NCBI GenBank assembly: GCA_016188895.1
Contig: JACPGZ010000041.1
Location: forward strand, 1-42,400
DNA from: Candidatus Pacearchaeota archaeon
GTDB lineage: Archaea > Nanobdellota > Nanobdellia > Pacearchaeales > GW2011-AR1
Direction: 5' to 3'
DNA length: 42,400 bases
Below, in pieces: positions 2,534 through 18,838 of this stretch. A model generated the notes under the pieces. It had not been told where the DNA came from, did no database searches, and saw only the letters and a program-made list of their open reading frames with translations. The translations under genes were made by a program, and so were the position numbers. How positions within the stretch are numbered: the first letter of the stretch is position 1; each line of letters begins with the position of its first letter.

Positions 2534-2547
2534 CGCCCGCACCGGGA
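2534..2547 (+). repeat. Putative att site (distal): 14-nt copy of tRNA-Asp 3' end
   Basis: CGCCCGCACCGGGA identical to 18695-18708 in tRNA-Asp, same orientation. Confidence 0.65.
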
Positions 2548-2587
2548 CAAGTCCGGTTTTGTTCGCAACGAGGGGCGCCGGGGAGAG

Positions 2588-3019
2588 CTACAAAGATTTT
2601 CCTCCAATAATAACCGCCTTCGATACTTCAGCTGTCTCTATTATTACATCGCAATGCCTTGGCCTGCATTCCCAATACACACTATCGAGAAAGACAATGA
2701 TCTTGCTTGCCTCAGTATCCCGATAAGTCTCCTCTGGAATCCTATTGATTAATGCCTCTCCAATAACGACGGAGCCACCTTCATTCAATGCATTGCAATC
2801 TACAAGTCTTTCCAGATTTTCAAACAAACTGAAAAAACGAGGAGTTGGATCCCAGTATTCAAGGCATATGAAAGAACTATCCCTCTTGTTCAGAGTATCC
2901 GCCAGTTTCATGCGGTTTGTGATCTGTTGAATCTGGGGCTTGTATAAATTCACAAGAGCATAATCGCAATCTCCATTGTATTCAGAATTGCTTGAGTAGG
3001 TTCTGAGTATAAGATTCAT
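2588..3019 (-). CDS. Hypothetical protein
   Basis: ORF with start taken at MNLILRTYSSN...; no recognised family. Confidence 0.4.
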   Translation of the reverse strand: MNLILRTYSSNSEYNGDCDYALVNLYKPQIQQITNRMKLADTLNKRDSSFICLEYWDPTPRFFSLFENLERLVDCNALNEGGSVVIGEALINRIPEETYRDTEASKIIVFLDSVYWECRPRHCDVIIETAEVSKAVIIGGKSL

Positions 3020-3129
3020 AAATAGGAAAAAACTTACGCAATTTAAATAATTTCTACCGAAATGCACAAGATAATGAATAAATACCAAATCGGTTCAATC
3101 TTTAATAATTCCTCGCCCTTTTTCCATTC

Positions 3130-3690
3130 ATGCGCAATGTTTATCAAATTATCACAGACAGAATTATTTCAAAACTTGAAGAAGGAACAGTTCCATGGCA
3201 TAGACCTTGGGGAGTGCGAGGCATTCCGAGAAGTCTGGTTTCTGGCAAAGAATATCGTGGAATTAACTCTTTTGTTTTGAGTTCAGCAGGATATGAAGCT
3301 CTTTATTGGCTTAGTTACAAGCAAGCAAAAGAAAGAAGAGGCTTTGTTAAGAAAGGCCAGCAAGGATATCCATGCGTTTACTGGAATTGGTTGGAAATGA
3401 AAGATGAAGAGACAAATGAAATTAAAAAAGTACCTTTTCTCAGATACTACACAGTCTTTAATGTTGAGCAGTGTGAAAATATAGAATATCCAAAGGGCGA
3501 TGGACTTGAATTTTTGTTTGATCCAATTGAGCACTGCGAAAGGATAGTTGGGGAAATGCCAAATCCACCATCAATCAGGCAAGGTGGAAGCAGGGCTCGT
3601 TACATTCCGATCAAAGACACAATAGAGATGCCAAGGCCTGAGAGCTTTGAAACCTCAGAGTCTTACTACAGCGTTCTATTTCACGAGCTG
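3130..3690 (+). pseudogene. ArdC-like antirestriction protein, N-terminal part (split gene)
   Basis: MRNVYQIITDRIISKLEEGTVPWHRPWG...Y..LSYKQAKERRGFVKKGQQG...YYTVFNVEQC...YYSVLFHEL, interrupted inside the HExxH motif. Confidence 0.8.
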
Positions 3691-3695
3691 GCCGG

Positions 3696-4327
3696 AGATC
3701 TTGTGCGCTCACTGAAACATTGTCCAGGATGAGCCGCGAGCGAGGAGCTGCATCGTAGTAGAATATCAAGTCGGTCTTCCAAATCCCATTAGGACTGACG
3801 TTCGACACAGCAATTCTGTATGGAAGTAGGGGATCTGGGAAGTAAAAGCAGGAGGGAATGTCGCATGCCATTGCAGACCGAACGTAGATTGGGAACTCTC
3901 CTGTTCTCTTCGGTCTTACGCGCAGTTTCAATGTGTTTGTCTTATTGGGCGACCAAGAGCTATCAGCAAGTTCAGATAGTAAGTAAATAGCGCTCATCCT
4001 GACGCATTTGTTATTGTGTATAGTTGAGTATTTTGGATAAATCGTAAGTTTGGCAGATCCCGACGAACTTCCGTTATTAGCAACAAGACCCCCATCACTC
4101 GAATCGGTGAATGAAGGAAATGAAATTGAAATCCCGCCGTCTGGAGACGTGAGGGTGCCACTATTTAGGCAATTTACTTCGACATCTGCCCAATCTCCGA
4201 GCGTGATTTGATTTGGATGAGAAATGCTGAGTAGCTTAGGAAGTGGACACCCCTGGGCATTCAAGCGAGGGGAAAAGAACAGCCCAACAATCGCGGACAG
4301 TAGAACCGATTCTATGATACTCTTCAT
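3696..4327 (-). pseudogene. Secreted protein, N-terminal part of a split dockerin-type protein
   Basis: Signal peptide MKSIIESVLLSAIVGLFFSPRLNAQG; coding up to ...DNVSVSAQDL, after which it runs antisense through ardC. Confidence 0.6.
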
Positions 4328-4653
4328 GGGAATACCTCAACCTTGAAAGAAATGTTTCTTTCGCTTTCTCGTTGGCCCCAGCGTAATCTGTCATATCGAA
4401 ATCCTCCAAAGGGATTCTGAAATTCCCCTTTGTCTTCTCGTGCGGCCTTCAAGGCATTGACAACTATCTCAAGGCATTTCTCTGATTCGTTTGTCTGAAG
4501 TCTCTTGGCAGCCAGAATCACTTGGTCCTCGTATTCAGGTGGTAGAACGAATGAAATAATAATTGGGCTTTGCATTATCAACTCCATATCAACATCTTCT
4601 TTCATTTTCGGCCTGTTGAAGCGGAAGCTTGAGGAACCTTTGTCCATTGACAT
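4324..4653 (-). CDS. Hypothetical protein
   Basis: 109 aa ORF; 4-nt overlap with the downstream ORF. Confidence 0.5.
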   Translation of the reverse strand: MSMDKGSSSFRFNRPKMKEDVDMELIMQSPIIISFVLPPEYEDQVILAAKRLQTNESEKCLEIVVNALKAAREDKGEFQNPFGGFRYDRLRWGQRESERNISFKVEVFP

Positions 4654-4674
4654 TCCGAGAATAAATTGAATTCA

Positions 4675-4869
4675 TCACGGCACCCTCCTCCCAACCTTCC
4701 ACTTGTCATACCCATTTGAAGCTGTGAAATACTCCTTCATGCACTCTTCATTGCAGAAATGCATTGCGCTGTCTAATGGAACAAACCCGCTTGTCCCTAC
4801 AATCCCCTCTTCCACTTCCAAAATATTCAAGCCTTCATCAAGCCTCTTCTGACACATTGAGCATTTCAT
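4675..4869 (-). CDS. Small zinc-finger-like protein
   Basis: CSMCQKRL...MHFCNEECMKEYF; 4-nt overlap with ardC C-terminal part. Confidence 0.55.
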   Translation of the reverse strand: MKCSMCQKRLDEGLNILEVEEGIVGTSGFVPLDSAMHFCNEECMKEYFTASNGYDKWKVGRRVP

Positions 4870-5162
4870 TCTTCCAAAATCTCCTCAAGCTTCTTTCCAA
4901 GAATGTAATCTGATGCTTTTTGAGCCTGGGCCGCAGACTGAATTACAAAGCGATTGTCATTCTTTAATCGAAAAAGCCAGCCCGCAATATAAGAAGCTGA
5001 ATTGTCAATCACCCTGTTCTCTATACCAGTGTGACCACATAGATAAGCAGATCCCATCTCTGCAATCAATTCCTCTTTGCTGTAGGTATTTGATCCAAAG
5101 ACAATTGGCTCTGTAATTCCAGAGCGAGCGAGCCTTTTCTCATGCCCTGTGCTATGGGTTAG
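4866..5162 (-). pseudogene. ArdC-like protein, C-terminal part (split gene, opposite strand)
   Basis: Minus strand reads LTHSTGHEKRLARSGITEPIVFGSNTYSKEELIAEMGSAYLCGHTGIENRVIDNSASYIAGWLFRLKNDNRFVIQSAAQAQKASDYILG. Confidence 0.85.
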
Positions 5163-5440
5163 TCTTCCGGCGGGCAGATTCTAATGGAGATGGCTCCGTC
5201 GATATCTCTGATGCAGTCAACACTCTGACCTTCCTATTCTCTGGAGAAGGCTCCAATTCCTGCCCCGATGCCTCCGAAACGAACGATGATGGTCAAATTG
5301 ATATTTCAGATCCAATAACAACTTTAGAATTTCTCTTCTTGGGAGGACAAGAACCACCCGCTCCAGGTCCGATGAATTGTGGAGTTGACTTGACGGAGGA
5401 TGGGTTGGGGGAGTGTATATATGATAAGGGGGAGTGTTAA
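5162..5440 (+). pseudogene. Dockerin-type (EF-hand-like) C-terminal fragment
   Basis: VFRRADSNGDGSVDISDAVNTLTFLFSGEGSNSCPDASETNDDGQIDISDPITTLEFLFLGG...; two DxNxDGxxDISD repeats, no own start. Confidence 0.75.
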
Positions 5441-5502
5441 CGCACTCTACTGCATTACTCTTCATTTATATTCACAGCTTTACTGTAGCTCCTGAGCTCT
5501 AA

Positions 5503-6135
5503 TTATTTTACAGAAGGCGATATTGCAAGTTGGGAATAGCATAGGCTCCTCTCCTCCTGGTCCCAGGTGATTCTATCGCAAATGGAGATGTTGCTTTGGG
5601 TTTCTGCTATACTTGTATAGCAGTCAGCAGCCTCACCGCCCCAATCTTTAATCGAGATTTCATCGCAGAGGCTCACATTCCCCGTGACTTTAGCATAAAT
5701 TGCTAGGCACCGAACTCGACGCTCTCTGTCTCTAGGGAGGGAATAGCATCCTTGGAAGCCGAGTTGAGTTACGTATTCACAAAAGAATTGCCAGGAGACT
5801 GTCTCGCCAGCCTGCTCATCGCCCTGTTCAGGACCTTTGGATTCTGAGATCGCTGAGCCCGTAATTCGAGTACATATATCGGGGCGTTCCAACAATGCCG
5901 CCATGTACACATAGCAACGAAACTGGACAGGGGTAGTTTGGATCCTTGTGCAAATTGTTACATCTCGCTGATCAATAGCTAGGTTCAAGAGGCACACTTC
6001 TTTAGCTTTGGTATTCTTTTTGTCCAGGCAATGGTCATAGGGTTCTGGCCTGCTCTGGAAAAACAGGTAGAATACCATGCCAACTAGTGCGAAGACTATG
6101 AGCATACTCAAAATTCCTATTATCCTCTTTTTCAT
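5503..6135 (-). CDS. Membrane-anchored Cys-rich repeat protein
   Basis: MKKRIIGILSMLIVFALVGMVFYLFF anchor followed by regularly spaced Cys (C..I..C) repeats. Confidence 0.6.
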   Translation of the reverse strand: MKKRIIGILSMLIVFALVGMVFYLFFQSRPEPYDHCLDKKNTKAKEVCLLNLAIDQRDVTICTRIQTTPVQFRCYVYMAALLERPDICTRITGSAISESKGPEQGDEQAGETVSWQFFCEYVTQLGFQGCYSLPRDRERRVRCLAIYAKVTGNVSLCDEISIKDWGGEAADCYTSIAETQSNISICDRITWDQEERSLCYSQLAISPSVK

Positions 6136-6577
6136 TAACCATAGAAAAGCACTTGCGCTATATAAATCTTTTCCAAATTCCCGCCCAGACCAAATCAGTC
6201 CAAAGTATATATACTTGCTCTGCGTATTTTCTTTACCAATTGGTAACAAAACTAAGGGAGGAAAATATCTGGCTATGAATAACGAATGGAGCTTAACCCT
6301 TGAAAAGACTACCAAAAAGATAAGAAAAAGTAAAAAGATGAATTGGAGAACTTGAAAGAGAAGATAGTAAAGTTATAAAGGGTTCCAAAAAAGGCAACAA
6401 AGGAGAAAGGATTTCTGGCAAAAAGGGAAGAAAAGAAGTTGAAGAAGCAAGAAAGAGAGCACAAAAGATAGAAATGGCAATAAAAGGTTGATTTCCTACT
6501 ATATTAACAAATAATACTTATATCAAAAAGCCTTAGAAAACGAAGGATTTAAATACTATTAATAGCTATGAATATAT

Positions 6578-6823
6578 ATGAATACTACAAGTATCACTTT
6601 GGATAGAAATGTAAAGAAAGGTCTAGACAGATTGAAAGCTCATAAGCGAGAGTCATATAACGAGGTCATTGCTCGAATTCTCGCCGGAAAAGTGTCACGA
6701 ATTGATAGCGAGAGCTTGCTGGAGACCATCGAGATACTCTCTGATCCAGAGGCAATGAGAAGTCTTGCTACCAGCATAGAGCAATTGAAAGGCGGGAAGC
6801 TCTATTCTATAGATGAGGTCTGA
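6578..6823 (+). CDS. Ribbon-helix-helix type antitoxin
   Basis: ITLDRNVKKGLDRLKAHKRESYNEVIARIL; directly upstream of RelE. Confidence 0.65.
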   Translation: MNTTSITLDRNVKKGLDRLKAHKRESYNEVIARILAGKVSRIDSESLLETIEILSDPEAMRSLATSIEQLKGGKLYSIDEV

Positions 6824-7080
6824 TGGAGAGGGTAATCATGTTCACAGAGGAAGGGAAGAAGACACTCCAGAGTATGCATATTGATAATAAGCGAAAGATC
6901 AAGAGGGCATTGAAGGAGTTGGCCAAAGACTCGAGAATCGGGAAGGCTTTGACAGGAAGATTGCAGGGCTTCTATAGCTTCCGCGTTGGAAAGTATAGAG
7001 CGATATACTCAACTGAAGGAGAGGCTATTATCGTTCACGTGGTGGGACATCGGCGCGAGGTTTATGGGGTTGCGGCTTGA
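6823..7080 (+). CDS. RelE/ParE family toxin
   Basis: KRALKELAKDSRIGKALTGRLQGFYSFRVGKYRAIYS...VVGHRREVY. Confidence 0.85.
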   Translation: MERVIMFTEEGKKTLQSMHIDNKRKIKRALKELAKDSRIGKALTGRLQGFYSFRVGKYRAIYSTEGEAIIVHVVGHRREVYGVAA

Positions 7081-7192
7081 AGGGGGTTGGGGTGATGCGG
7101 GGCGGCTCGGCAGAGGGATGGATCCCGCCCCGGTTCCCCCTTGACCAGAGTTATGAAAAAGAAGAAAATCTCTGAAGCTGAGAAAAATATCC

Positions 7193-7453
7193 ATGAAGGT
7201 GCGGCTTGAGCAGGGAGACCATGGTACATGGCTCCTCATAGCAGAGGACGGCCGCGATCTCCTGATTCAAACTGACTGGGACTACCCAGGACTCGCTTCC
7301 CATCTCGGCTGGGTTCCTTGCACTCAATGCGATCAAACAGATGGAACGATTGACTGCGCTCACCGCACGGTTTCTGAAATGATCTCAGAGGCGAGACGTT
7401 TCCTGGATGAAAAGGAGGGCGAAAGTTTCGAAGATCCTGGCTACTTTGATTGA
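7193..7453 (+). CDS. Hypothetical protein
   Basis: 86 aa acidic ORF with CTQC motif. Confidence 0.45.
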   Translation: MKVRLEQGDHGTWLLIAEDGRDLLIQTDWDYPGLASHLGWVPCTQCDQTDGTIDCAHRTVSEMISEARRFLDEKEGESFEDPGYFD

Positions 7454-7517
7454 GGAAACATTGGATTGGGGTTGAGTGGAGGTTGCGAGGGTGATAGTTG
7501 TGGCGGAAAAACATTAA

Positions 7518-7919
7518 ATGGCCTCAAGTTACCATATCGGTGATACTAAGAGACTCCATTTGTTATTTGACGATAGATATAAAGGGTTTAAAGCGACTTG
7601 GAAAGATTGTAATTCTTTCCTTATCCAGGAAGGGCCAAGCGATGGTGTAGTTCTGTTATACAATGAAGCATCATATTCACCAAAAGCGGTTGTTAAGTTC
7701 CTAAGTTCTCAAGGTCGAACAATTAGTATTGGTTGTGGAAGTGTAGATTGGGATGGGAAATACTGGACATTCGCTGAGCCCTCCGAAAAGGTTCTATGTG
7801 AAAAGCTTATCACTCGGCTTGTAAACGACGACCAGAAAATGCTTCGGTATTATGGGGATTTCACGCTGAGAACAAAGGCGGAAGTTTTCCTACTCATTTC
7901 AAGCTACTTGTTAAGATAA
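7518..7919 (+). CDS. Hypothetical protein, first gene of ImmA-GuaA operon
   Basis: 133 aa ORF, 2 nt before the next gene. Confidence 0.6.
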   Translation: MASSYHIGDTKRLHLLFDDRYKGFKATWKDCNSFLIQEGPSDGVVLLYNEASYSPKAVVKFLSSQGRTISIGCGSVDWDGKYWTFAEPSEKVLCEKLITRLVNDDQKMLRYYGDFTLRTKAEVFLLISSYLLR

Positions 7920-7921
7920 TT

Positions 7922-8734
7922 ATGAGCCGGCGCTGGAAATCTCATATCGTTAGAGCCTTTTGGAAAAATGTCGGCGGGAGGAGCCCAACCCACGCTGTCA
8001 ACATTGTGTGCTGTGCCTTACGACACCGTCTATGTGTCAAAGAACCTCCATTTCAGATTCCACCAAAGTATTCCTATGCTGAGTTGCTAGGAATTCCAGT
8101 TATTGAAAATGATATTCGTTGCGATGGTATATTGACAAGTTTTGGAGATCAATTCATAATTCAAGTAAAAAGGTCTTCGCCTGATAGACAGAACTTTACG
8201 GTGTGTCATGAGCTTGGGCATGCTGAAATCTTCAGAAGGGCACTTGTACTACACAAGGCTTCTCGTGAAGTCAGAGAGGAGGAAGTATTAGCGAACGAGT
8301 TTGCCAAAGAGTTACTAATGCCAAAAGATATTTTCTGTGCAATAGCTCTCTCATGTCAGCCTAGTTTACAATCCCTGTTTTTTCTATCTCATACCTTTGG
8401 CACTTCGTTAGAAGCCTCCGCGAGACGTCTTATTGAACTTAATATTTGGAATTTCGCTTTTGTTTTGTGGAATATTAATACTGCATTTGACGGTGGTATC
8501 CTATTAGAAATTGAGCGGGCAGTAAAGCCTCAAAACTTTAAACCTGCACTAAAGACCAAACAGACTTTGAAGGTGAATAAAGAAGGTGGGTTGGGTAAAC
8601 ACTTGCTGGAAACATTGAATATTCCCAGCATTGTCCGCTATTCAGACGAGAGTCGAGTAAGAGAATCGATAAGGCGTTCTTCTGTCCAGCGCCAGGGTCT
8701 TACTCTTCTTTTTCCTCAGTCAGCAACTTTATAA
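7922..8734 (+). CDS. ImmA/IrrE family metallopeptidase
   Basis: VCHELGHAEIF zinc motif and EVLANEFAKELLMP signature. Confidence 0.85.
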   Translation: MSRRWKSHIVRAFWKNVGGRSPTHAVNIVCCALRHRLCVKEPPFQIPPKYSYAELLGIPVIENDIRCDGILTSFGDQFIIQVKRSSPDRQNFTVCHELGHAEIFRRALVLHKASREVREEEVLANEFAKELLMPKDIFCAIALSCQPSLQSLFFLSHTFGTSLEASARRLIELNIWNFAFVLWNINTAFDGGILLEIERAVKPQNFKPALKTKQTLKVNKEGGLGKHLLETLNIPSIVRYSDESRVRESIRRSSVQRQGLTLLFPQSATL

Positions 8735-8757
8735 ATTTGGTTGGTTGTCGTTTGACT

Positions 8758-10557
8758 ATGAGCCAAATATTAATAGTAAATGTCGGTGGTCAGTACTGCC
8801 ACCTAATAGCTCGCCGAATTCGTGAGCTGGGTGTACAGAGTCGAATCTGTACCTCAGAAACGCTCGAAAATGAACTTGCGGAGGTAAAGGGAATAATCAT
8901 CTCTGGTGGTCCCAGTAGTGTGTATGACCCAGATTCTCCAGTAGTGCCGCCCTCTGTTTTTAGCGCCAAAATCCCCATACTAGGCATTTGTTATGGACAT
9001 CAGTTATTAGCTCACAATTTGGGTGGAACGGTGCGACCAGGAAAGCTTCGAGAGTATGGGGAAACCTCACTCACGGTCATAGACAATGATTCCATACTTT
9101 GTGGAATTCGTAAAAATGAAATTGTGTGGATGAGTCATGGTGATGAGGTGGTGAAAGTGCCACCAGGTTTCCAGGTAATAGCTCGCACTGAAAATTGCCC
9201 CATCGCGGCTATGTCAAACACGGATCAAAAGTATTTTGGCCTGCAGTTTCATCCTGAAGTTTCCCACACTCTCTGTGGATCAATTGTGATTAAGAACTTT
9301 GTATTTAACATTTGTAAGTGCTCTAAAGACTGGGACATGGGGGGTGAGATCTTAAGATTAAAGGCAGATATTCAGAAACAGGTTGGTCAGCGAAAAGTGT
9401 TGTTTTTCGTTAGTGGAGGTGTGGACTCAACTGTAGCATTCTCATTGTGCGCTGAAGCTCTTGGACCGGAGCGGGTACTCGGAGTGTTCGTAGACACCGG
9501 CTTCATGAGAAAGGATGAGCGAGAGGAAATTGAGGCAACTTTTTTGGCCAAAGGATGGCACAATATTCATTATATTGATGCGTCGAAAACATTTTTAGAA
9601 GCTGTCAGTGGAATTGCCGACCCTGAAAAAAAACGGAAGCGCATTGGCAACAGCTTTCTCGACGTTCAGCGGAGTGTTATGAAACAACTAGGCTTGGGAT
9701 CAAGTGACTGGATGTTGGGACAAGGAACCATCTACCCAGATACAATTGAATCCGGAAAGGCAAAATTTGCATCCTTGATTAAAACCCACCACAACCGTGT
9801 TGAGCTTATTGATAATTTGATTCGCCAAGGTTTAGTTTTAGAACCACTTAAATCTCTCTATAAAGATGAAGTGCGAGACATTGGAAGAGCTCTTGGCTTA
9901 CCTGGGGACATGGTGAATAAACATCCATTTCCCGGGCCAGGGTTGTCTGTGCGCTGCTTGTGTTCTGAAGAAGAGACTCGTCCAAAGTCTGATCATGCTC
10001 TCTCGAGCATAGTAAGCCGTTATGGTCTAAAGGCTTGGCGATTACCACTATTTACTGTAGGTGTTCAGGGAGATTATCGAAGTTATCGGGAACTTGTACT
10101 CTTGTCTGAAGGTGTAGAACTACCAGTCTATAGTATGTTGGCCTCCCAGATAATTAATAAGGTCGCTCAAACTAATCGTGTTGTATTCATCCTTGCAAGA
10201 AAAAGCCCTCATTTAAATATTGAGAATGCAATTATTCGTCCCAATCGGTTCTTGACTATGGATAGACTTGACCTACTGCGTGAGGCAGATGATTTATGCA
10301 GGAAGTTTCTTGAAGCTGCTGATCTCTCAGGAGAAGTGTGGCAGTTTCCAGTAATTCTTCTGCCCCTTTCTTTGGAATCAGGCGAGACGATAGCCTTACG
10401 TCCCATATTATCCTCCGATGCCATGACAGCCAAGCATGCCGAACTACCCATGGATTTCCTTGCAGAACTTTCAAGGCGATTGTGCGAGATTAAAGGTATA
10501 GATCTTGTTCTTTACGATGTTACTAATAAACCGCCAGCAACGATAGAATGGGAATAA
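8758..10557 (+). CDS. guaA: GMP synthase (glutamine-hydrolysing), single-chain bacterial-type
   Basis: ILGICYGHQ and LQFHPEVSHT GATase motifs, SGGVDST PP-loop, C-terminal YDVTNKPPATIEWE. Confidence 0.92.
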   Translation: MSQILIVNVGGQYCHLIARRIRELGVQSRICTSETLENELAEVKGIIISGGPSSVYDPDSPVVPPSVFSAKIPILGICYGHQLLAHNLGGTVRPGKLREYGETSLTVIDNDSILCGIRKNEIVWMSHGDEVVKVPPGFQVIARTENCPIAAMSNTDQKYFGLQFHPEVSHTLCGSIVIKNFVFNICKCSKDWDMGGEILRLKADIQKQVGQRKVLFFVSGGVDSTVAFSLCAEALGPERVLGVFVDTGFMRKDEREEIEATFLAKGWHNIHYIDASKTFLEAVSGIADPEKKRKRIGNSFLDVQRSVMKQLGLGSSDWMLGQGTIYPDTIESGKAKFASLIKTHHNRVELIDNLIRQGLVLEPLKSLYKDEVRDIGRALGLPGDMVNKHPFPGPGLSVRCLCSEEETRPKSDHALSSIVSRYGLKAWRLPLFTVGVQGDYRSYRELVLLSEGVELPVYSMLASQIINKVAQTNRVVFILARKSPHLNIENAIIRPNRFLTMDRLDLLREADDLCRKFLEAADLSGEVWQFPVILLPLSLESGETIALRPILSSDAMTAKHAELPMDFLAELSRRLCEIKGIDLVLYDVTNKPPATIEWE

Positions 10558-10563
10558 TGGTTA

Positions 10564-10830
10564 ATGGACGAAACGAAATTGTCAGAGCTCAAATTGACAG
10601 TTGACAAGATTTGTAAAAGCTATAACGATACTATCAGTTATGAGTTATTGGAATCTTCAGCTTCAGTAGAATTGCATGGCGGCGTTCCTCATTTTTCATT
10701 GGAGGAAGATATAATTATAAATCTTCTTTTTCCATCAGGAGTTTCTATCGAAGAGTCTCAGTTAAGAGAGTTATCTCAAAAGCTATCTTCTCTTGAGAAT
10801 GTTACTCGTGTTACGCTTCAATTCGTATAA
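10564..10830 (+). CDS. Hypothetical protein, last gene of ImmA-GuaA operon
   Basis: 88 aa ORF, 6 nt after guaA. Confidence 0.6.
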   Translation: MDETKLSELKLTVDKICKSYNDTISYELLESSASVELHGGVPHFSLEEDIIINLLFPSGVSIEESQLRELSQKLSSLENVTRVTLQFV

Positions 10831-10935
10831 TTATAATTCAGCAAAATTAATTATTTTTTTGATATTTAATCCAGTTCAACCTTTTAAAACTGCACAGCAT
10901 GTGTCATGACCAAAAACGGGAGATATATCAGCTGT

Positions 10936-11241
10936 TCAGAAGGATGGCCCTGCCGGCGAGACTCCGTGCTTGTCAGCAATTTCCTTGATAGTCATGCTCT
11001 TATACATCTCACGGAGCTCTTCAGCAGCGATGTTGAACTTGCCTCTCTTTCCCCTTCTTCGCTTCCTAACAGCGCGGGCTCTTGCCGGAGGAGATACACG
11101 AGCACCTGTGAATTGCTGCAAAGCTCTGACCATATCTGAAAGCCTTCTGCAGGCCTCCATGTTGATCAGCCCGAAGTCAACCAAGGTCTGAAGAGCTTCT
11201 ACATCATTCTGCTCTGCCATGACAGAGTCCCCTGGTAACAT
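10936..11241 (-). CDS. Helix-turn-helix protein, apparently C-terminally truncated
   Basis: ELREMYKSMTIKEIADKHGVSPAG then early stop. Confidence 0.45.
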   Translation of the reverse strand: MLPGDSVMAEQNDVEALQTLVDFGLINMEACRRLSDMVRALQQFTGARVSPPARARAVRKRRRGKRGKFNIAAEELREMYKSMTIKEIADKHGVSPAGPSF

Positions 11242-11457
11242 TTACCAAACACTTCTCTTCTAAAAACTCAGATACTATAATCCTGACTTCTATTTTCGCA
11301 ATAGAAAAACTGAAAATATTTTAATAGTTAATCGGCTGGGAAGGGTTTCAGGAAGAGAGGAGTAGATATTGATCAGATAGAAAGATGGTAAATCCGCAAA
11401 ATACAATAAATAACAGAAGCCCCTGGATAATATTCAAAGGACATATTCTTGACTTTA

Positions 11458-11640
11458 TCAAGCACTGACCTGCTGTTGAGGAGGCGTAGTTCTGGGAGCT
11501 GGCATCAGTTCTGTAAAGAGAAAGCTACCTTCAGAGCTGTCACTGAATCTGACATCTGCTACCTGATTCTTCCGGAGGACTTTGATAATAGTTCCAGTCT
11601 TCTCTTCGCCCTTGACATTCACCCGAACCCAATCTCCCAT
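11458..11640 (-). CDS. Small hypothetical protein (possibly frameshifted with 11619-11837)
   Basis: MGDWVRVNVKGEEKTGTIIKVLRKNQVADVRF; SH3-like beta pattern. Confidence 0.35.
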   Translation of the reverse strand: MGDWVRVNVKGEEKTGTIIKVLRKNQVADVRFSDSSEGSFLFTELMPAPRTTPPQQQVSA

Positions 11641-12024
11641 TCTCCACTTGATGGTCTTTTCTTTTCTCCCCCGCCGGGGCTTTTCTTGGGGCGCTTCTTC
11701 TGTAGGAGTTTCCTTGGCTTCATGGGGCTCAGCTTCTTTGGTTTTCCTTCGCCAATTATATCTTTTGCAATATCATAATATTCTATATTTTTTGTCAATT
11801 TATAACGAACATTGCATGTCACCTGAGTTCGCCGCATCGTGTTGTTCGCCCAGCTGAACCAGTTAAATACGATTGCTAGAGAAGAGTCAATACTCTCAAA
11901 ATTGCTGGTTTAGATATTGAAAGTAATTTAGCATCATTAATAAAATCACAAAATATTTAAGGATGTCCAACTTGGTTTTAGTTATGAGAAGAAAATAATA
12001 TGTCCCCGTGTAACCGGAGCGGAA

Positions 12025-12693
12025 TTGTGCCAGATACTTAATTCTCGTAGCTATTGCTACCTTTTACGAAGCGCCGCGAATTTTGTTTCAGCTACTGGGT
12101 ACGAAGTAGCGTTTGAAGTAGCAAGAGATTTCAAAGGGAAATATTATTTAAGTGATCTAGCAACTGGTACTTCTGATCACGTATATATTTATAAAACGCA
12201 GCAAATCGCAGAGGATACATTCCGTGAAGGTAACATACCAGACGCTATTGTATTGATTAATCTTCACTTCCATCCCGGTGCTCACCCTTATCCAAAGCCA
12301 TCAGCGCAAGATTTACTCCACATCGAACATAGAACTCTTCTTGAATATCACCTCGATGATGTTAGACCGATTTGCGGCATATCTACTGTAGACAAATGTG
12401 ATATGGTTACAACACTATTCTTTCAGAAACGTCATGCGAAATTACGTCACCATTTTCCTGGAAGAAGTAAAGAACAATATCCATTACAAAGAGAGATCTA
12501 TGAATTATCGCAAATACCTCTTAGCTCCATGCAAGACACAGTCTCTGCTCTACGGGACTCTGGATTACTAGAAGCGCTCTGTGTAGAATTCAGGACCAAA
12601 GGTAGGACAAAATACTTCACAAACGTCCAGGAGAGCGATTTAGAGCGTTTCTCCTACGTGCCACGCCTCTCGATAAGAAGACATAACACATAA
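12025..12693 (+). CDS. JAMM/MPN+-like metalloprotease with C-terminal winged-helix-like region
   Basis: LHFHPGAHPYPKPSAQDL matches HxHP...PSxxD; C-term IYELSQIPLSSMQDTVSALRDSGLLE...RTKGRTKYF. Confidence 0.6.
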   Translation: MCQILNSRSYCYLLRSAANFVSATGYEVAFEVARDFKGKYYLSDLATGTSDHVYIYKTQQIAEDTFREGNIPDAIVLINLHFHPGAHPYPKPSAQDLLHIEHRTLLEYHLDDVRPICGISTVDKCDMVTTLFFQKRHAKLRHHFPGRSKEQYPLQREIYELSQIPLSSMQDTVSALRDSGLLEALCVEFRTKGRTKYFTNVQESDLERFSYVPRLSIRRHNT

Positions 12694-12799
12694 ATATTTC
12701 AGCAGTTACAAAAATCATTAAAATTTCTATGAAAATTTTTCCCCAAATCCGGTCCTAGAATGATGAAGCTCTTAAAAGAGCTATTTTTGGATTATCGTA

Positions 12800-13279
12800 A
12801 TGAAACTATCGCTACTAAGTGATTCAGAATTGATTAAAAGGTATAGGCGAACTGGCGATTGCAATTGTATCGAAGAATTGTACAAGAGATACAAGAAGCA
12901 GCATTATAATTATTTGCTCTTTACTCTAAAGGACGAGACAGCTGCCGAGGATATTCTTTCAGACGCATGGGGAAAAATATTAAGGTACCTTGCGAGGGAG
13001 GATTATCCTATTAAAAACTTTATGTCATGGTCTTTTTCTGTAATCAGGACCAAAGCTATAGATTTCTTTTCACGCCCACAATACGAAAGCTTAGACAATC
13101 CGAAATTTCAGTTTCTTCCCTCTAAGCAGCACTCGCCCGCCAAAGAGGTTGAAAACTGTGAGAGGAACACATCTATCAATGAAGCCGTCTCACAGTTACT
13201 CGAGCGTCTGCATCTTCCATACTCTTCTCCATCCTTTCAAAGAATTCATCCAAATCATCAAAAGATTCTACTCCCATGA
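12800..13279 (+). pseudogene. ECF-type sigma-70 family protein with region 2 only
   Basis: LSDSELIKRYRRTGDCNCIEELYKRYKKQHYNYLLFTLKDETAAEDILSDAWGKI...SWSFSVIRTKAIDFFSR; region 4 not recognisable. Confidence 0.65.
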
Positions 13280-13348
13280 AGTCAAGAGTGAAAACTCCTT
13301 TTTATACTTTTAACTGATTTGCAGGATAATTAGAATTGCGAGTCTTTC

Positions 13349-13717
13349 TTATTCTACAAATTCGACAATTGGGAGCTCTTCAAACTCTTTGTCACCTGTT
13401 AGAAATTTCATTCCATGACGCTTCGCATAAATATAGCCAATGCAATCAGCATATGAAAAATCTTGCTTTTTATTTTCCTTCCTGAATTTAATTGCCTCCT
13501 TAAGTGTGTCGTCATCAATCTCAGCCACCGCGTCCTTATATTCTTTAAAAACCTCGTCTGCTTGCTTCTCTCCAAGTTTATTCAGAACCACCCAATATAT
13601 CTCCGCTAAATTAAAGATTGTTATTGTTGCAGATTCGTCCTCATATTTTGCGTATCTTTGATTACCTTCAATGAGCTCAATTATTGAATATGTGTCGAAG
13701 AAGTAGCTTACTGCCAT
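13349..13717 (-). CDS. PIN domain toxin (VapC-like)
   Basis: YFFDTYSIIELIEG...YADCIGYIYAKRHGMKFLTGDKEFEEL. Confidence 0.85.
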   Translation of the reverse strand: MAVSYFFDTYSIIELIEGNQRYAKYEDESATITIFNLAEIYWVVLNKLGEKQADEVFKEYKDAVAEIDDDTLKEAIKFRKENKKQDFSYADCIGYIYAKRHGMKFLTGDKEFEELPIVEFVE

Positions 13718-13953
13718 TTTTCCCTATCACGATCACTTTCCCAACCTTTGCGTGCTTCATCCTTCAGCCTTTGCGTTGAAAACTTCTTTAGTTCAGGAAA
13801 TTTTCCAAATAGCACTCCTGCCTTTGGCTTTGATTTCATGATGATGATCAGTATTTCTTCATCTTCATGAATATTTTGATGTTCGGCAATCTCTTTTGGA
13901 ATTACAACTGCTATTGAGTTTCCCCACTTTCTTGTTATTGTTTTGACTTCCAT
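13708..13953 (-). CDS. AbrB-type antitoxin (VapB-like)
   Basis: TRKWGNSIAVVIPKEIAEHQNIHEDEEI. Confidence 0.85.
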   Translation of the reverse strand: MEVKTITRKWGNSIAVVIPKEIAEHQNIHEDEEILIIIMKSKPKAGVLFGKFPELKKFSTQRLKDEARKGWESDRDREKWQ

Positions 13954-14002
13954 GTATATAATGAGACGAAGTGATATTTAAACCTTTAGGTGATCATTTA
14001 AA

Positions 14003-14311
14003 TCACAATCCTAGTTCCTTCCTGATATTCTCCAGATACTTCTCCAAATCTTTGTAACCCTTTTTTCTATCCAAAAGACAGACCATGACTAACTTCCTCC
14101 CGAGAATAGCATATATCATTCTTGTTGCACTTCTTCCGATAGAAAGCCTCACACTAAAAACTCTTGAATATTTCCTTGAATGGACTTTTTTGTAACGAAA
14201 GGGATTTTGTTTAATCAACCGGATTTTATCGCTGATAATTCTTTTTGTTTTTTCATCAAGCCCTGATACTTGCTCACTGAAAAACTTCAAAGCAATAATT
14301 TTAAACTCCAT
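14003..14311 (-). CDS. RelE-like toxin
   Basis: LDEKTKRIISDKIRLIKQNPFRYKKVHSRKYSRVFSVRLSIGRSATRMIYAI. Confidence 0.7.
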   Translation of the reverse strand: MEFKIIALKFFSEQVSGLDEKTKRIISDKIRLIKQNPFRYKKVHSRKYSRVFSVRLSIGRSATRMIYAILGRKLVMVCLLDRKKGYKDLEKYLENIRKELGL

Positions 14312-14561
14312 TCAAAATCCCGTTGAGCTCTTCTTCAGAAACAACTTCTCCTCTTTTAATTGACAGCTCAACCAATTCGTCTATTAGCTCAATTTCTTTT
14401 TGGTTAAAACTTTCGTCATATTCCCCTTCTTCAAAAACCTTTTCCCTGATGCTCTCTGAAGCAAGTTCTTGGACATTTTTATAGCCATGGCTTTTGACAT
14501 AACGCTCTGCTGCTTCAATAAGATTCTTTGGCAATTTCAAATTAATCTGCTTTGTTTCCAT
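14301..14561 (-). CDS. RHH-type antitoxin partner
   Basis: METKQINLKLPKNLIEAAERYVKSHGYKNVQELASESIREKV; overlaps toxin start. Confidence 0.7.
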   Translation of the reverse strand: METKQINLKLPKNLIEAAERYVKSHGYKNVQELASESIREKVFEEGEYDESFNQKEIELIDELVELSIKRGEVVSEEELNGILNGV

Positions 14562-14816
14562 GATATCTATAGATAGCTTTAGATATTTAAATCTTTCGGT
14601 GAACAACTCATTTGCATTTCCATATCTGAGGTTCCATTTGGGGAAGTTTCACGTCTCAGAGTTGGCTTTAAAAATCACCCTATTGAATTATTCTTGAAGT
14701 CAGGTAAAATGATGGGTTTAGAAGATACCTTGTGAACAAGAGATTGGTTATAATGTAATGGTAAAGTCATAAGCAGTAAGAAGGACAAAGGACAACCATT
14801 AATTAGGAGCGATGAA

Positions 14817-15206
14817 ATGAAAAAAAGGATGATTGTCAAAATAACTATCATTTATGCTCTTGTAATTTGCACAACAGGCTGCCTCGGTGGCAAGTACACT
14901 TACAAGCCTCCTGACAGCTTACCTAAGATTAACAATTTCATTGAAATTGAGGAGCCAAAAGATTTAGTGTGGCAGAGACTTGTTGCTGGTTTAGGAAGAG
15001 AATATTTCGTAATTAATAATCTCGATAAAGAGTCTGGCTTTATCAATGTAAGTTATGGTGAAGATCCTGAACTTTTTATTGACTGCGGTGAGATATCGTC
15101 ATGGGTCAGTAACCTTAGAGGAAGGAGAGATTATGTGTTCCCTGCGTCTAGAGCAGCACAACAATTCGAGCAGAAGGCAAGGGTTGTGTCATATTATTTG
15201 CAATGA
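14817..15206 (+). CDS. Lipoprotein with bacterial-type lipobox
   Basis: MKKRMIVKITIIYALVICTTGCLGG. Confidence 0.55.
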   Translation: MKKRMIVKITIIYALVICTTGCLGGKYTYKPPDSLPKINNFIEIEEPKDLVWQRLVAGLGREYFVINNLDKESGFINVSYGEDPELFIDCGEISSWVSNLRGRRDYVFPASRAAQQFEQKARVVSYYLQ

Positions 15207-16060
15207 CAAACGAAAAAATTGATAATTTCGGAGGTCCAGGAGGAGTAATTGATATTTCCTCTCATAAAGATGTAATAGCCATTGGAAGATCTACAAACCT
15301 TGATGTTTGGGGTCATAGTGGTTTTGGGAAAGGAATGGCTTTTTTATCGCCGACAAATGCAGCCAAAGGAACTCCACTTGATGGATGTAATCCAGGAGAT
15401 CTGGCAGGTACTTTAGATATTACAACGACTGATCTCATGGGTGGTTCAGGATATAATAGCGGGCTTGGTGACCCTTGCTTCTGTAATGCACAGATTAATG
15501 AAAACAACAATGCTAATTATACAAATTGTTTTGGAGGAACATCTTCTGCTACACCGCTTTCTGCAGGAGTTGCAGCCCTAGTTCTTTCAATAAGCCCGAA
15601 TTTATCGGCAAAAGAAGTAAGAAAAATACTGATAGAGACAGCTGATAAAATTGATCGTGATCAGGCTAACTATCAACAAGATGATGTAGGACTTGAATAT
15701 AGTGCAACTCACGGATATGGAAGAATTAATGCTAAAAAGGCTGTTGAAAAAGCAATTGGGATTGCACCGGCATTGGTAGTGGCAAGAAAAGACGATGTAA
15801 AAAAGCAAGCTTTTAAGGAATCTGATATAGGGAGAAAAGGAGAATCAAAGGTTGCTGAAGTATTATTTGGAGTTCCAGTTGAGCAGCAGAAAATAACAAC
15901 AAAAAGACGTCAATATGACGTATTCGTCGCCTCAAATTTAAGGGCAGTAATTATAGATGAAAAAATTGGCAAAAATAAAATCCTTGAAAGATTAGGAAGC
16001 GAGTTAAAAAGTATTTCAGATAAGCCATGGCTTTCTGGTTTGGAGGTTAACCCCAGTTGA
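15203..16060 (+). CDS. Subtilisin-like (S8) peptidase fragment with extra C-terminal domain
   Basis: FGGTSSATPLSAGVAALVLSISPNLSAKEVRKILIETADKID...GYGRINAKKAVEKAI; upstream Asp/His motifs absent. Confidence 0.65.
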   Translation: MTNEKIDNFGGPGGVIDISSHKDVIAIGRSTNLDVWGHSGFGKGMAFLSPTNAAKGTPLDGCNPGDLAGTLDITTTDLMGGSGYNSGLGDPCFCNAQINENNNANYTNCFGGTSSATPLSAGVAALVLSISPNLSAKEVRKILIETADKIDRDQANYQQDDVGLEYSATHGYGRINAKKAVEKAIGIAPALVVARKDDVKKQAFKESDIGRKGESKVAEVLFGVPVEQQKITTKRRQYDVFVASNLRAVIIDEKIGKNKILERLGSELKSISDKPWLSGLEVNPS

Positions 16061-16118
16061 GAAAAGGTAAAAGATAATCATAGAATAAAAAGGTGAAAGG
16101 TTCAAAATGGAGTAAAAA

Positions 16119-16637
16119 ATGAATATTATTGCAACAATATTGGCTGCAGCGATAATTTTAACCATTCTATTTATTACAATCAACAAAAAAGCAATCGATA
16201 GCAATTCAGCCTTTTTAGTTTGGGCTGCAGTGGCATTGTATGCAATACCTTTTTTTTCCGAAATTACACTAGGCCCTGGAGGTGTTGAGTTAAAGAAAAA
16301 TATCGAAGATTTCAGAAAATCTATTAAAAACTTGGATGCAGTAGTGGAAGTTCAAGATAAGTTTACATTTTCTAGAATCAGAGGATTTCCTGATTTATTG
16401 GCCGGTGGACCTCAAGATAAAATTGATTTAAAAGAAAATGCACAAAAGATTATAGCTTGGCTTGGGAATGATTCAACAAAAAGGATGCTTTTACAGCAAT
16501 GGATGAAAGCAAATGATTTGGATATATCAATAACAGCCTTTATTTATGCAGATTCGTTCGAAAATGATAGAGAGAAAGCAATCAAGGAACTTGGCATACA
16601 AAATATGTTGAATGAAAAAAACAAGATTGAGAACTGA
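16119..16637 (+). CDS. Membrane-anchored hypothetical protein
   Basis: Two N-terminal TM segments, soluble helical C-terminus. Confidence 0.55.
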   Translation: MNIIATILAAAIILTILFITINKKAIDSNSAFLVWAAVALYAIPFFSEITLGPGGVELKKNIEDFRKSIKNLDAVVEVQDKFTFSRIRGFPDLLAGGPQDKIDLKENAQKIIAWLGNDSTKRMLLQQWMKANDLDISITAFIYADSFENDREKAIKELGIQNMLNEKNKIEN

Positions 16638-16750
16638 GAGAGAAAGAAACCATTACAGATATGAAAGTAACCTATCTCTAAGAATTAGTATTGTGTTTAT
16701 AATTAAACGATTAATTATAATTGTAATCTTTTCAGATAAGGAAGTATGTA

Positions 16751-17140
16751 ATGATTAAAATATACCTCATTGTGATCGGAGCTTTACTAGTTTCTGGTTG
16801 TGCACACACTCACTATTATGCAGATAAGGAGGGCAATAAAGAGCTTGCTGGACTTCCAATTATTTGGATAGACAAAGAAGGCAATCGTCAAGAGGCATAC
16901 GTAAGCACTTGCAGCGGATTTGGAACAGCAAGTTTTGAACTTGAAAGAACTTCAGATGGGGGTTTCACAAAGTTTTCGAACAATCTGGATAGTACAGCTG
17001 CAGCGCAGATAGCAGGAAGTATTTTAGATAAGGCTTTTGAGGCCGGGAAGACTGCTGCAAGAGCAGAAATGAGAGAAAAGGCTTTACGCAATCCAGATCC
17101 AGAACGAAGAAGGGCAATTTTAGAAAGCCTGGATTTATGA
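16751..17140 (+). CDS. Lipoprotein with bacterial-type lipobox
   Basis: MIKIYLIVIGALLVSGCAHTH. Confidence 0.6.
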   Translation: MIKIYLIVIGALLVSGCAHTHYYADKEGNKELAGLPIIWIDKEGNRQEAYVSTCSGFGTASFELERTSDGGFTKFSNNLDSTAAAQIAGSILDKAFEAGKTAARAEMREKALRNPDPERRRAILESLDL

Positions 17141-17296
17141 TAGATTCTCTATAATGAAATTTATATCTTGGCTTTCATCCAAAAAAAAGCAATAGTTGAT
17201 AAATTCTTTTTCCATTTCCAAGATCTCCACTACCACAGCCCTCACGCTCGCTGCGTCCGTTTCGTTCTGTGGGACATGCGTTGAAAAGCATAAAAA

Positions 17297-17416
17297 TCAC
17301 TTGTTAATTCCAACAACTTTCCCTTCTTTAACCAGCACCGCCTCAATCCTCCTCTCGATCTCCTCTATTCTCTCAATTATCTCCTGAAGAGCTTTCTTAA
17401 CCTCTCGGCGTTTCAT
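17297..17416 (-). CDS. Small coiled-coil protein downstream of integrase
   Basis: MKRREVKKALQEIIERIEEIERRIEAVLVKEGKVVGINK (39 aa). Confidence 0.45.
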   Translation of the reverse strand: MKRREVKKALQEIIERIEEIERRIEAVLVKEGKVVGINK

Positions 17417-17467
17417 GATGCTTCTGCGGAATGAAATAATAAATAGTTTGAACTGAATTACTTTGCT

Positions 17468-18631
17468 TTATACTTGCTGCATAACCTGCTCTATTCTCTT
17501 TTTAAGTTCACCAAGGTCTTTTCTTGTTTGGTCGAGATCAAAGCGCAGAGACTGATTATCCTCTCCTTGTCGTCGTAGTCTATCAACTAATAGGCGCTCG
17601 CGTTGCTTTGCCTGTTGGAGCTCCCCTTCTATCCTCTGCAGATTACTATCAAAGAGTTTTTTCTTTGGTTTTCTACGATCAATCGCTAGGTAGGATACGT
17701 ACGCGTCAATCTCCTTGGAGCTGGGTTTGTGTCCGAGTCGGAAGTTCACTTCGTCTGTTGTCCAGCCAGACCTGAGGAGATGGCAGGCCATGCCAGATCT
17801 GAGATCCTTCCAGCTCACTCGAGTGTTTGTGGGGACGCAGCTTGCTCCTGTCTTCCTCGCCACGCTGTGCATTAGCTTCAAGGCTTGTCTGTAGCCGAAG
17901 CGGAAAACACAATCGTTTTCATTCAGTCCTGGTAAAACGATGTCAGCGTACTTCGCTGTCTCTGGATAGAGGGTTGGTTCGCTTCGCGACTGCCTGCTGC
18001 GTTTCAGCTTCTCCCGAGGAAGGTTTACCAAGTATTCAACTTCCCTAGTGTCTTCATTGACTTGACGGGTGAAGTCCTTCTTGGTGAGCTGCAGAAGGGT
18101 GTTGATGTTCTCTCCGACATCCCAGGCAAGCCAGAAAAGGAGCAAATGGGATGGCTTTGAAAGAACAGATACCATCTTTAGGAAAGTTTCCTCGCTAACG
18201 AAACTCACTTCCTTCCGAGGATTACTGCTGAACTCAATCACTTCCCTAGCGAGCTCATCCTTACCAGCAAGTTTGAAGGGCTTGCTCTTGAAGACTTTGT
18301 TGTAATAACTGCTTCTATCAGCGAATCTTTCGCCCTTTTTATTTCTGATTCGTCCTTCCTCGAGGTCGTCATACACTTTCTTTATATCTTCTTTTGTCAA
18401 ATCTTTCCATGGCTTATTCTTGAACCAAGAATTTACATTGCGGAACCGTTGGACGTAGTAAATCAAAGTCTTGTAGCAAGGTTCATCCAAAGCCGGAAGT
18501 CCATTCTGCCTCTTGAGCTTGTGCTCTTCGAATTGGAAAAATTGCCGGAAGACATCTCGATTCTCTCTACAAATCATCTTATCACACAAAAGCTCGTTCT
18601 TGGCCTTTTCATATCGTTCTTTAAATCCCAT
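17468..18631 (-). CDS. Tyrosine recombinase/integrase
   Basis: HLLRSGWTTDEVNFRLGHKPSSKEIDAYVSYL; starts next to tRNA-Asp; start taken at MGFKERYEKAK. Confidence 0.85.
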   Translation of the reverse strand: MGFKERYEKAKNELLCDKMICRENRDVFRQFFQFEEHKLKRQNGLPALDEPCYKTLIYYVQRFRNVNSWFKNKPWKDLTKEDIKKVYDDLEEGRIRNKKGERFADRSSYYNKVFKSKPFKLAGKDELAREVIEFSSNPRKEVSFVSEETFLKMVSVLSKPSHLLLFWLAWDVGENINTLLQLTKKDFTRQVNEDTREVEYLVNLPREKLKRSRQSRSEPTLYPETAKYADIVLPGLNENDCVFRFGYRQALKLMHSVARKTGASCVPTNTRVSWKDLRSGMACHLLRSGWTTDEVNFRLGHKPSSKEIDAYVSYLAIDRRKPKKKLFDSNLQRIEGELQQAKQRERLLVDRLRRQGEDNQSLRFDLDQTRKDLGELKKRIEQVMQQV

Positions 18632-18694
18632 GCAATTATTAAGGTGCCCAACTATATAAATCTTGCGCCCTTTTATGTGAACAAAAGTGGTCAG

Positions 18695-18838
18695 CGCCCG
18701 CACCGGGATTCGAACCCGGGTTGCATCCGATCTATGCTATTTCTAGCTATCATAGTTTTTCTGATTCCTAGAACTCTTTTTTCTAAAAAGAGTTGTAGCA
18801 TGACAGGGATGAGTGCTAGGCCACTACACTATGCGAGC
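18695..18838 (-). tRNA. tRNA-Asp(GTC) with 71-nt intron (18730-18800)
   Basis: Acceptor GCTCGCA/TGCGGGC, T-arm CCGGG-TTCGAAT-CCCGG, anticodon stem CATCC/GGATG, canonical BHB at 37/38. Confidence 0.9.

Follow-up and report, generated by a model that had tools for sequence, protein, structure and literature searches.

The 42,400-nt window analysed here is the whole of contig C2 in a metagenome-derived genome of 970 kb (62 contigs, 87% complete). It most likely carries a real, balanced and illegitimate inversion of ~1.47 kb, an accidental one-off rearrangement in the cargo of a foreign integrated element that breaks two genes, the anti-restriction gene ardC and a gene for a secreted dockerin-like protein. 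The features of the rearranged locus are as follows.

3130 to ~3687-3693, + strand: ardC, N-terminal part (ArdcN ssDNA-binding domain and start of the zincin domain, up to HEL of HExxH; PF08401, PF18818)
3687 to 3694: left breakpoint interval, the crossover lying inside these 8 nt (from flips restoring both proteins)
4327 to ~3691-3695, - strand: secreted protein gene, N-terminal part, ending in ...SVSAQDLR (ORF; signal peptide by inspection)
4324 to 4653, - strand: 109-aa gene, intact, with an ATGA overlap with the secreted gene (ORF)
4675 to 4869, - strand: 64-aa zinc-finger-like gene, intact, with an ATGA overlap with the ardC stop (ORF)
~5156-5160 to 4866, - strand: ardC, C-terminal part, remainder of the zincin domain (PF18818)
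5156 to 5163: right breakpoint interval (from flips restoring both proteins)
~5161-5164 to 5440, + strand: C-terminal part of the secreted protein gene with the dockerin-like EF-hand pair (FRRADSNGDGSVDISDAV...), sharing 49-57% identity with five proteins encoded elsewhere in this genome, on other contigs

The split of ardC between the two strands, proposed in an earlier note from the sequence alone, was borne out by the Pfam profiles. The + strand part (3130-3693) matched ArdcN (PF08401, 2.9e-31) and, over profile positions 13-53, the opening third of the PF18818 zincin profile, and the remainder of the same profile (positions 56-126, 9.2e-18) was found on the - strand at 4866-5150. As assembled, the ArdcN domain and the zincin domain with its HExxH motif thus lie on opposite strands, and they form one chain after the segment is flipped. 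The C-terminal half had no stop over 98 codons, a stop-free frame that arose in 0.08% of base shuffles. It retained 31 of 32 near-invariant residues, with no excess loss of conserved ones, and its identity to relatives was 55.0%, compared to 57.1% among the relatives themselves; for the N-terminal half, the corresponding values were 42.3% and 45.7%. Among homologues, 117 ArdC relatives carried the protein unsplit and colinear, and across their aligned HExxH motifs (n = 117) no insert was present in the variants inspected.

The open reading frames likewise placed the two parts of the secreted protein gene on opposite strands, as previously described. Once rejoined, this protein had 305 aa and read in frame through the junction ...DLR(P/L)(V/A)FRRADSNGDG. 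Its F-x-R-[GA]-D spacing was that of four resident paralogues (C46, C35, C51 and C11, named after their contigs), which aligned as LPGVFLRGDSN, NQPQFIRGDSN, AEQFIRGDTN and DNDFLRGDAN, and all four were unsplit and colinear and possessed the F three residues ahead of the first calcium-loop Asp. The term dockerin is purely descriptive here: the secreted protein had no match to the curated Dockerin family, only sub-threshold EF-hand matches, and its dockerin matches in the PDB were weak (E 0.1-0.9) and stood among EF-hand proteins. At least five further dockerin-like EF-hand proteins were encoded in the genome (C46:13229, C51:5777, C35:17162, C11:19579 and C49:6532). The one on C46 sits beside MCM and Elp3 genes, on a contig that is plainly archaeal (MCM, Elp3, PheRS). 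Weaker dockerin-like relatives were present in 5 of 185 other genomes of the order.

Flips were tried exhaustively for left ends in 3678-3704 and right ends in 5150-5179. Every flip whose end coordinates a and b sum to 8850 (a = 3687-3694, b = 5163-5156) restored both genes with no base gained or lost, and gave a 284-aa ArdC with a canonical HExxH (HELTHSTGH or HELAHSTGH). The crossover can therefore be placed only to within 8 nt, which includes two classes with 2-bp microhomology, at 3688-3690 (CT/AG) and at 3692-3694. The rejoined ArdC scored 120.9 bits against PF18818 and matched the PDB ArdC structures 6i89 and 6sna (phmmer, 7e-50) over 271 residues. The inverted hexamer GCCGGA (3691-3696) / TCCGGC (5166-5171), named by the earlier note as the shared breakpoint sequence, was discarded. 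A crossover there (sum 8862) leaves four extra residues within HExxH (HEL-AGRL-THS), removes the conserved F of the secreted protein and lowers the PF18818 score by 8.9 bits, to 112.0. The filler sequence that had been suggested for the junctions is not required either, because the length-preserving flip restores both proteins exactly. The inversion itself, in contrast, is well supported, as one conservative flip restores two independent genes.

The arrangement before the inversion is best explained as ardC, the zinc-finger-like gene, the 109-aa gene and the secreted dockerin-like gene in one direction. The 4-nt overlaps that had been reported throughout this gene order were found between ardC and the zinc-finger-like gene and between the 109-aa and secreted genes, whereas the zinc-finger-like and 109-aa genes are separated by 21 nt. 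The 64-aa product matched zf-FCS (PF06467) at 0.002, below the cut-off, and the 109-aa product had no match in Pfam or PHROGs. In the bacterial and viral ArdC loci examined, none of the zinc-finger-like, 109-aa or secreted genes was found next to ardC.

No shared recombinase-type sites or inverted repeats beyond chance were found at the two breakpoints. The sites were identical at 13 of 52 positions, which is chance level, and an equally high best 26-nt similarity was reached by 72% of random site pairs. Within 40 nt of the breakpoints, no inverted match was longer than 6 nt, the most frequent value for random pairs of 82-nt sites from this region; the hexamer discussed above carries no weight because it is the commonest longest inverted match between random sites. 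Tyrosine recombinases need 6-8 bp of identical overlap at the crossover. The tyrosine recombinase nearest to the inversion, 12.3 kb away, was the integrase of the surrounding element, for which comparison by eye revealed no convincing secondary attachment site at the breakpoints. Four further Phage_integrase matches were present in the genome, and no serine recombinase (PF00239) was found in it (87% complete).

The inversion lies inside a ~16-kb element (window 2534-18708), delimited by the following features.

2534 to 2547, + strand: left copy of the 14-bp direct repeat CGCCCGCACCGGGA, putative attachment site (exact match)
17468 to 18703, - strand: archaeal-type tyrosine recombinase of the element, directly at the tRNA (phrog_1, 7e-7)
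18694 to 18838, - strand: tRNA-Asp (GTC) with an intron, integration site (ARAGORN, introns allowed)
18695 to 18708, + strand: right copy of the 14-bp repeat, in the 3' end of tRNA-Asp (exact match)

The 14-bp repeat had exact copies in the genome only at 2534 and 18695. The recombinase also matched XerA_Arch (1e-4) and PF00589 (0.003), both below the cut-off. On the basis of the repeat, the tRNA-Asp gene and the adjoining tyrosine recombinase, the region from 2534 to 18.7 kb is therefore an integrated element, with a repeat of the tRNA 3' end on both sides and an integrase next to it, as is characteristic of tRNA-targeted integrative elements. Its G+C content was ~0.42-0.48 in the stretch of the inversion, compared to 0.325 in the 20-42 kb part of the window, and the genes beyond 18.8 kb were archaeal by inspection (S6e, archaeal MetAP, TyrRS, RNase HII). 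Together with the archaeal genes of C46 and the size of the genome, they suggest a DPANN-type archaeon. The element is a mosaic: beyond 13 kb its G+C falls, and it carries an ECF-like sigma factor without region 4. This truncated sigma factor (window 12800-13279) encodes region 2 only, with no frame continuing where region 4 is due, and belongs with a GMP synthase and an M78 protease to a cargo that is odd for an archaeon. A subtilase fragment (window 15203-16060) keeps the GTSSATP serine motif and lacks the N-terminal half of the domain; it follows a lipoprotein-like ORF, which it overlaps by 4 nt, and is possibly another rearranged gene.

The earlier note had left the choice between an invertible switch, a fixed rearrangement and an assembly error. 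We infer that the inverted order exists in cells, although an assembly or library artefact, in which the 1.47-kb piece is wrongly oriented in the contig and the organism carries an intact operon, keeps an appreciable if minor probability. It would fit a metagenome assembly in 62 contigs and severed halves that show no decay, and the 2-bp microhomology is within the range of the chimeric junctions described by PMC3411829. Against an artefact, the two junctions are reciprocal down to the single base, contain no Ns and show neither loss nor repetition of bases, and neither a single chimera nor a repeat-driven misassembly yields two reciprocal repeat-free junctions. One chimeric molecule gives one junction, usually with loss, and de Bruijn graph assemblers flip a segment only where inverted repeats about as long as the k-mer flank it, whereas the longest inverted repeat here is 6 nt. 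It is hardly credible that no inversion took place at all and that unrelated gene fragments, or naturally split genes, flank the segment. The element is indeed a mosaic with other truncated genes, such as the sigma factor without region 4, but the 117 relatives have an unsplit ArdC, and the same single flip also repairs the second gene, keeping both its reading frame and its register with the paralogues.

A programmed switch, in which a recombinase would flip the segment and thereby switch both ardC and the secreted gene between on and off, is improbable. Phase-variable invertons are flipped by serine invertases of the Hin/Gin/Cin type or by the tyrosine invertases of Bacteroides, and the present case resembles them in that the inversion is conservative and affects two reading frames at once. 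A conservative flip whose overlap is 2 bp, like that of serine recombinases, the lack of decay, and the presence of a tyrosine recombinase in the element, with the other integrase matches elsewhere in the genome, would all suit a switch. Unlike invertons, however, the locus showed neither matching inverted repeats nor a dedicated nearby invertase: site similarity was not above chance, a serine recombinase was not found, the only 6-mer is displaced from the crossover and breaks HExxH if used, and the breakpoints interrupt conserved coding motifs rather than falling at a promoter. A repeat-free invertible module of an archaeal integrative element, with an unrecognised recombinase that would turn anti-restriction and surface protein genes off together, is a still fainter prospect. 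With no shared site and no serine recombinase, a switch is thus disfavoured and a one-off rearrangement favoured.

The inversion is recent, because the C-terminal half of ArdC shows no decay; the undecayed severed halves would, however, also fit an artefact or a minority variant. Accordingly, ardC was whole until recently, is still whole in part of the population, or is really whole and misassembled. Being recent and not located at recombinase sites, the event is therefore regarded as an accidental rearrangement of dispensable element cargo, and presumably not a reversible one. It may have started with double-strand breaks at two places, within the HExxH codons of ardC and immediately upstream of the secreted gene's first EF-hand loop, after which the middle piece would have been rejoined turned around, with at most ~2 bp of microhomology and nothing lost, leaving both outer genes broken. 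Spontaneous small inversions in a Salmonella chemostat (PMC3411829) are comparable, as a segment was reversed in place with short homology at its ends. In that study, the verified inversions had inverted repeats of at least 12 bp at their endpoints, and junctions with less microhomology (7 and 9 bp) failed confirmation when tested, so that an inversion with ~2 bp is a little unusual.

The rejoined protein shares the ArdcN domain, zincin domain and HExxH motif with the ArdC of plasmid R388 (PDB 6i89, 6sna; PMC7213743), whereas the gene described here is cut inside HExxH and its host is an archaeon. In R388 ArdC, the effect on conjugation and host range persisted when the metal-binding E229 was mutated (PMC7213743), and loss of the zincin half therefore need not abolish all function of the N-terminal half, whose ssDNA-binding domain might retain some activity on its own.

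The locus illustrates cleanly, and to the base, how an inversion without repeats can break two genes, and it warns that annotations of ardC split at HExxH can stem from inversions. Specialists may gain more from its context than from the inversion: an element at tRNA-Asp that carries ardC, in a DPANN-like archaeon that also has a family of dockerin-like secreted proteins.

Relatives, in which the earlier note had proposed to look for the uninverted order, provided no such comparison: none of 56 relatives from the order and class had ardC, and the gene was rare across the phylum (7 of 380 genomes, that of the window included). In plasmid and phage DNA, the only match was one of 75 bp to ardC in two Bacillus plasmids. 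Among the ArdC loci collected, two pairs were located on contigs of equal size filed under different phyla, namely L056 and L057 (28958 bp; Saprospiraceae and Thermodesulfobacteriota) and L082 and L083 (92608 bp; Amaricoccus and Pontibacter), which looks like contamination of public assemblies.
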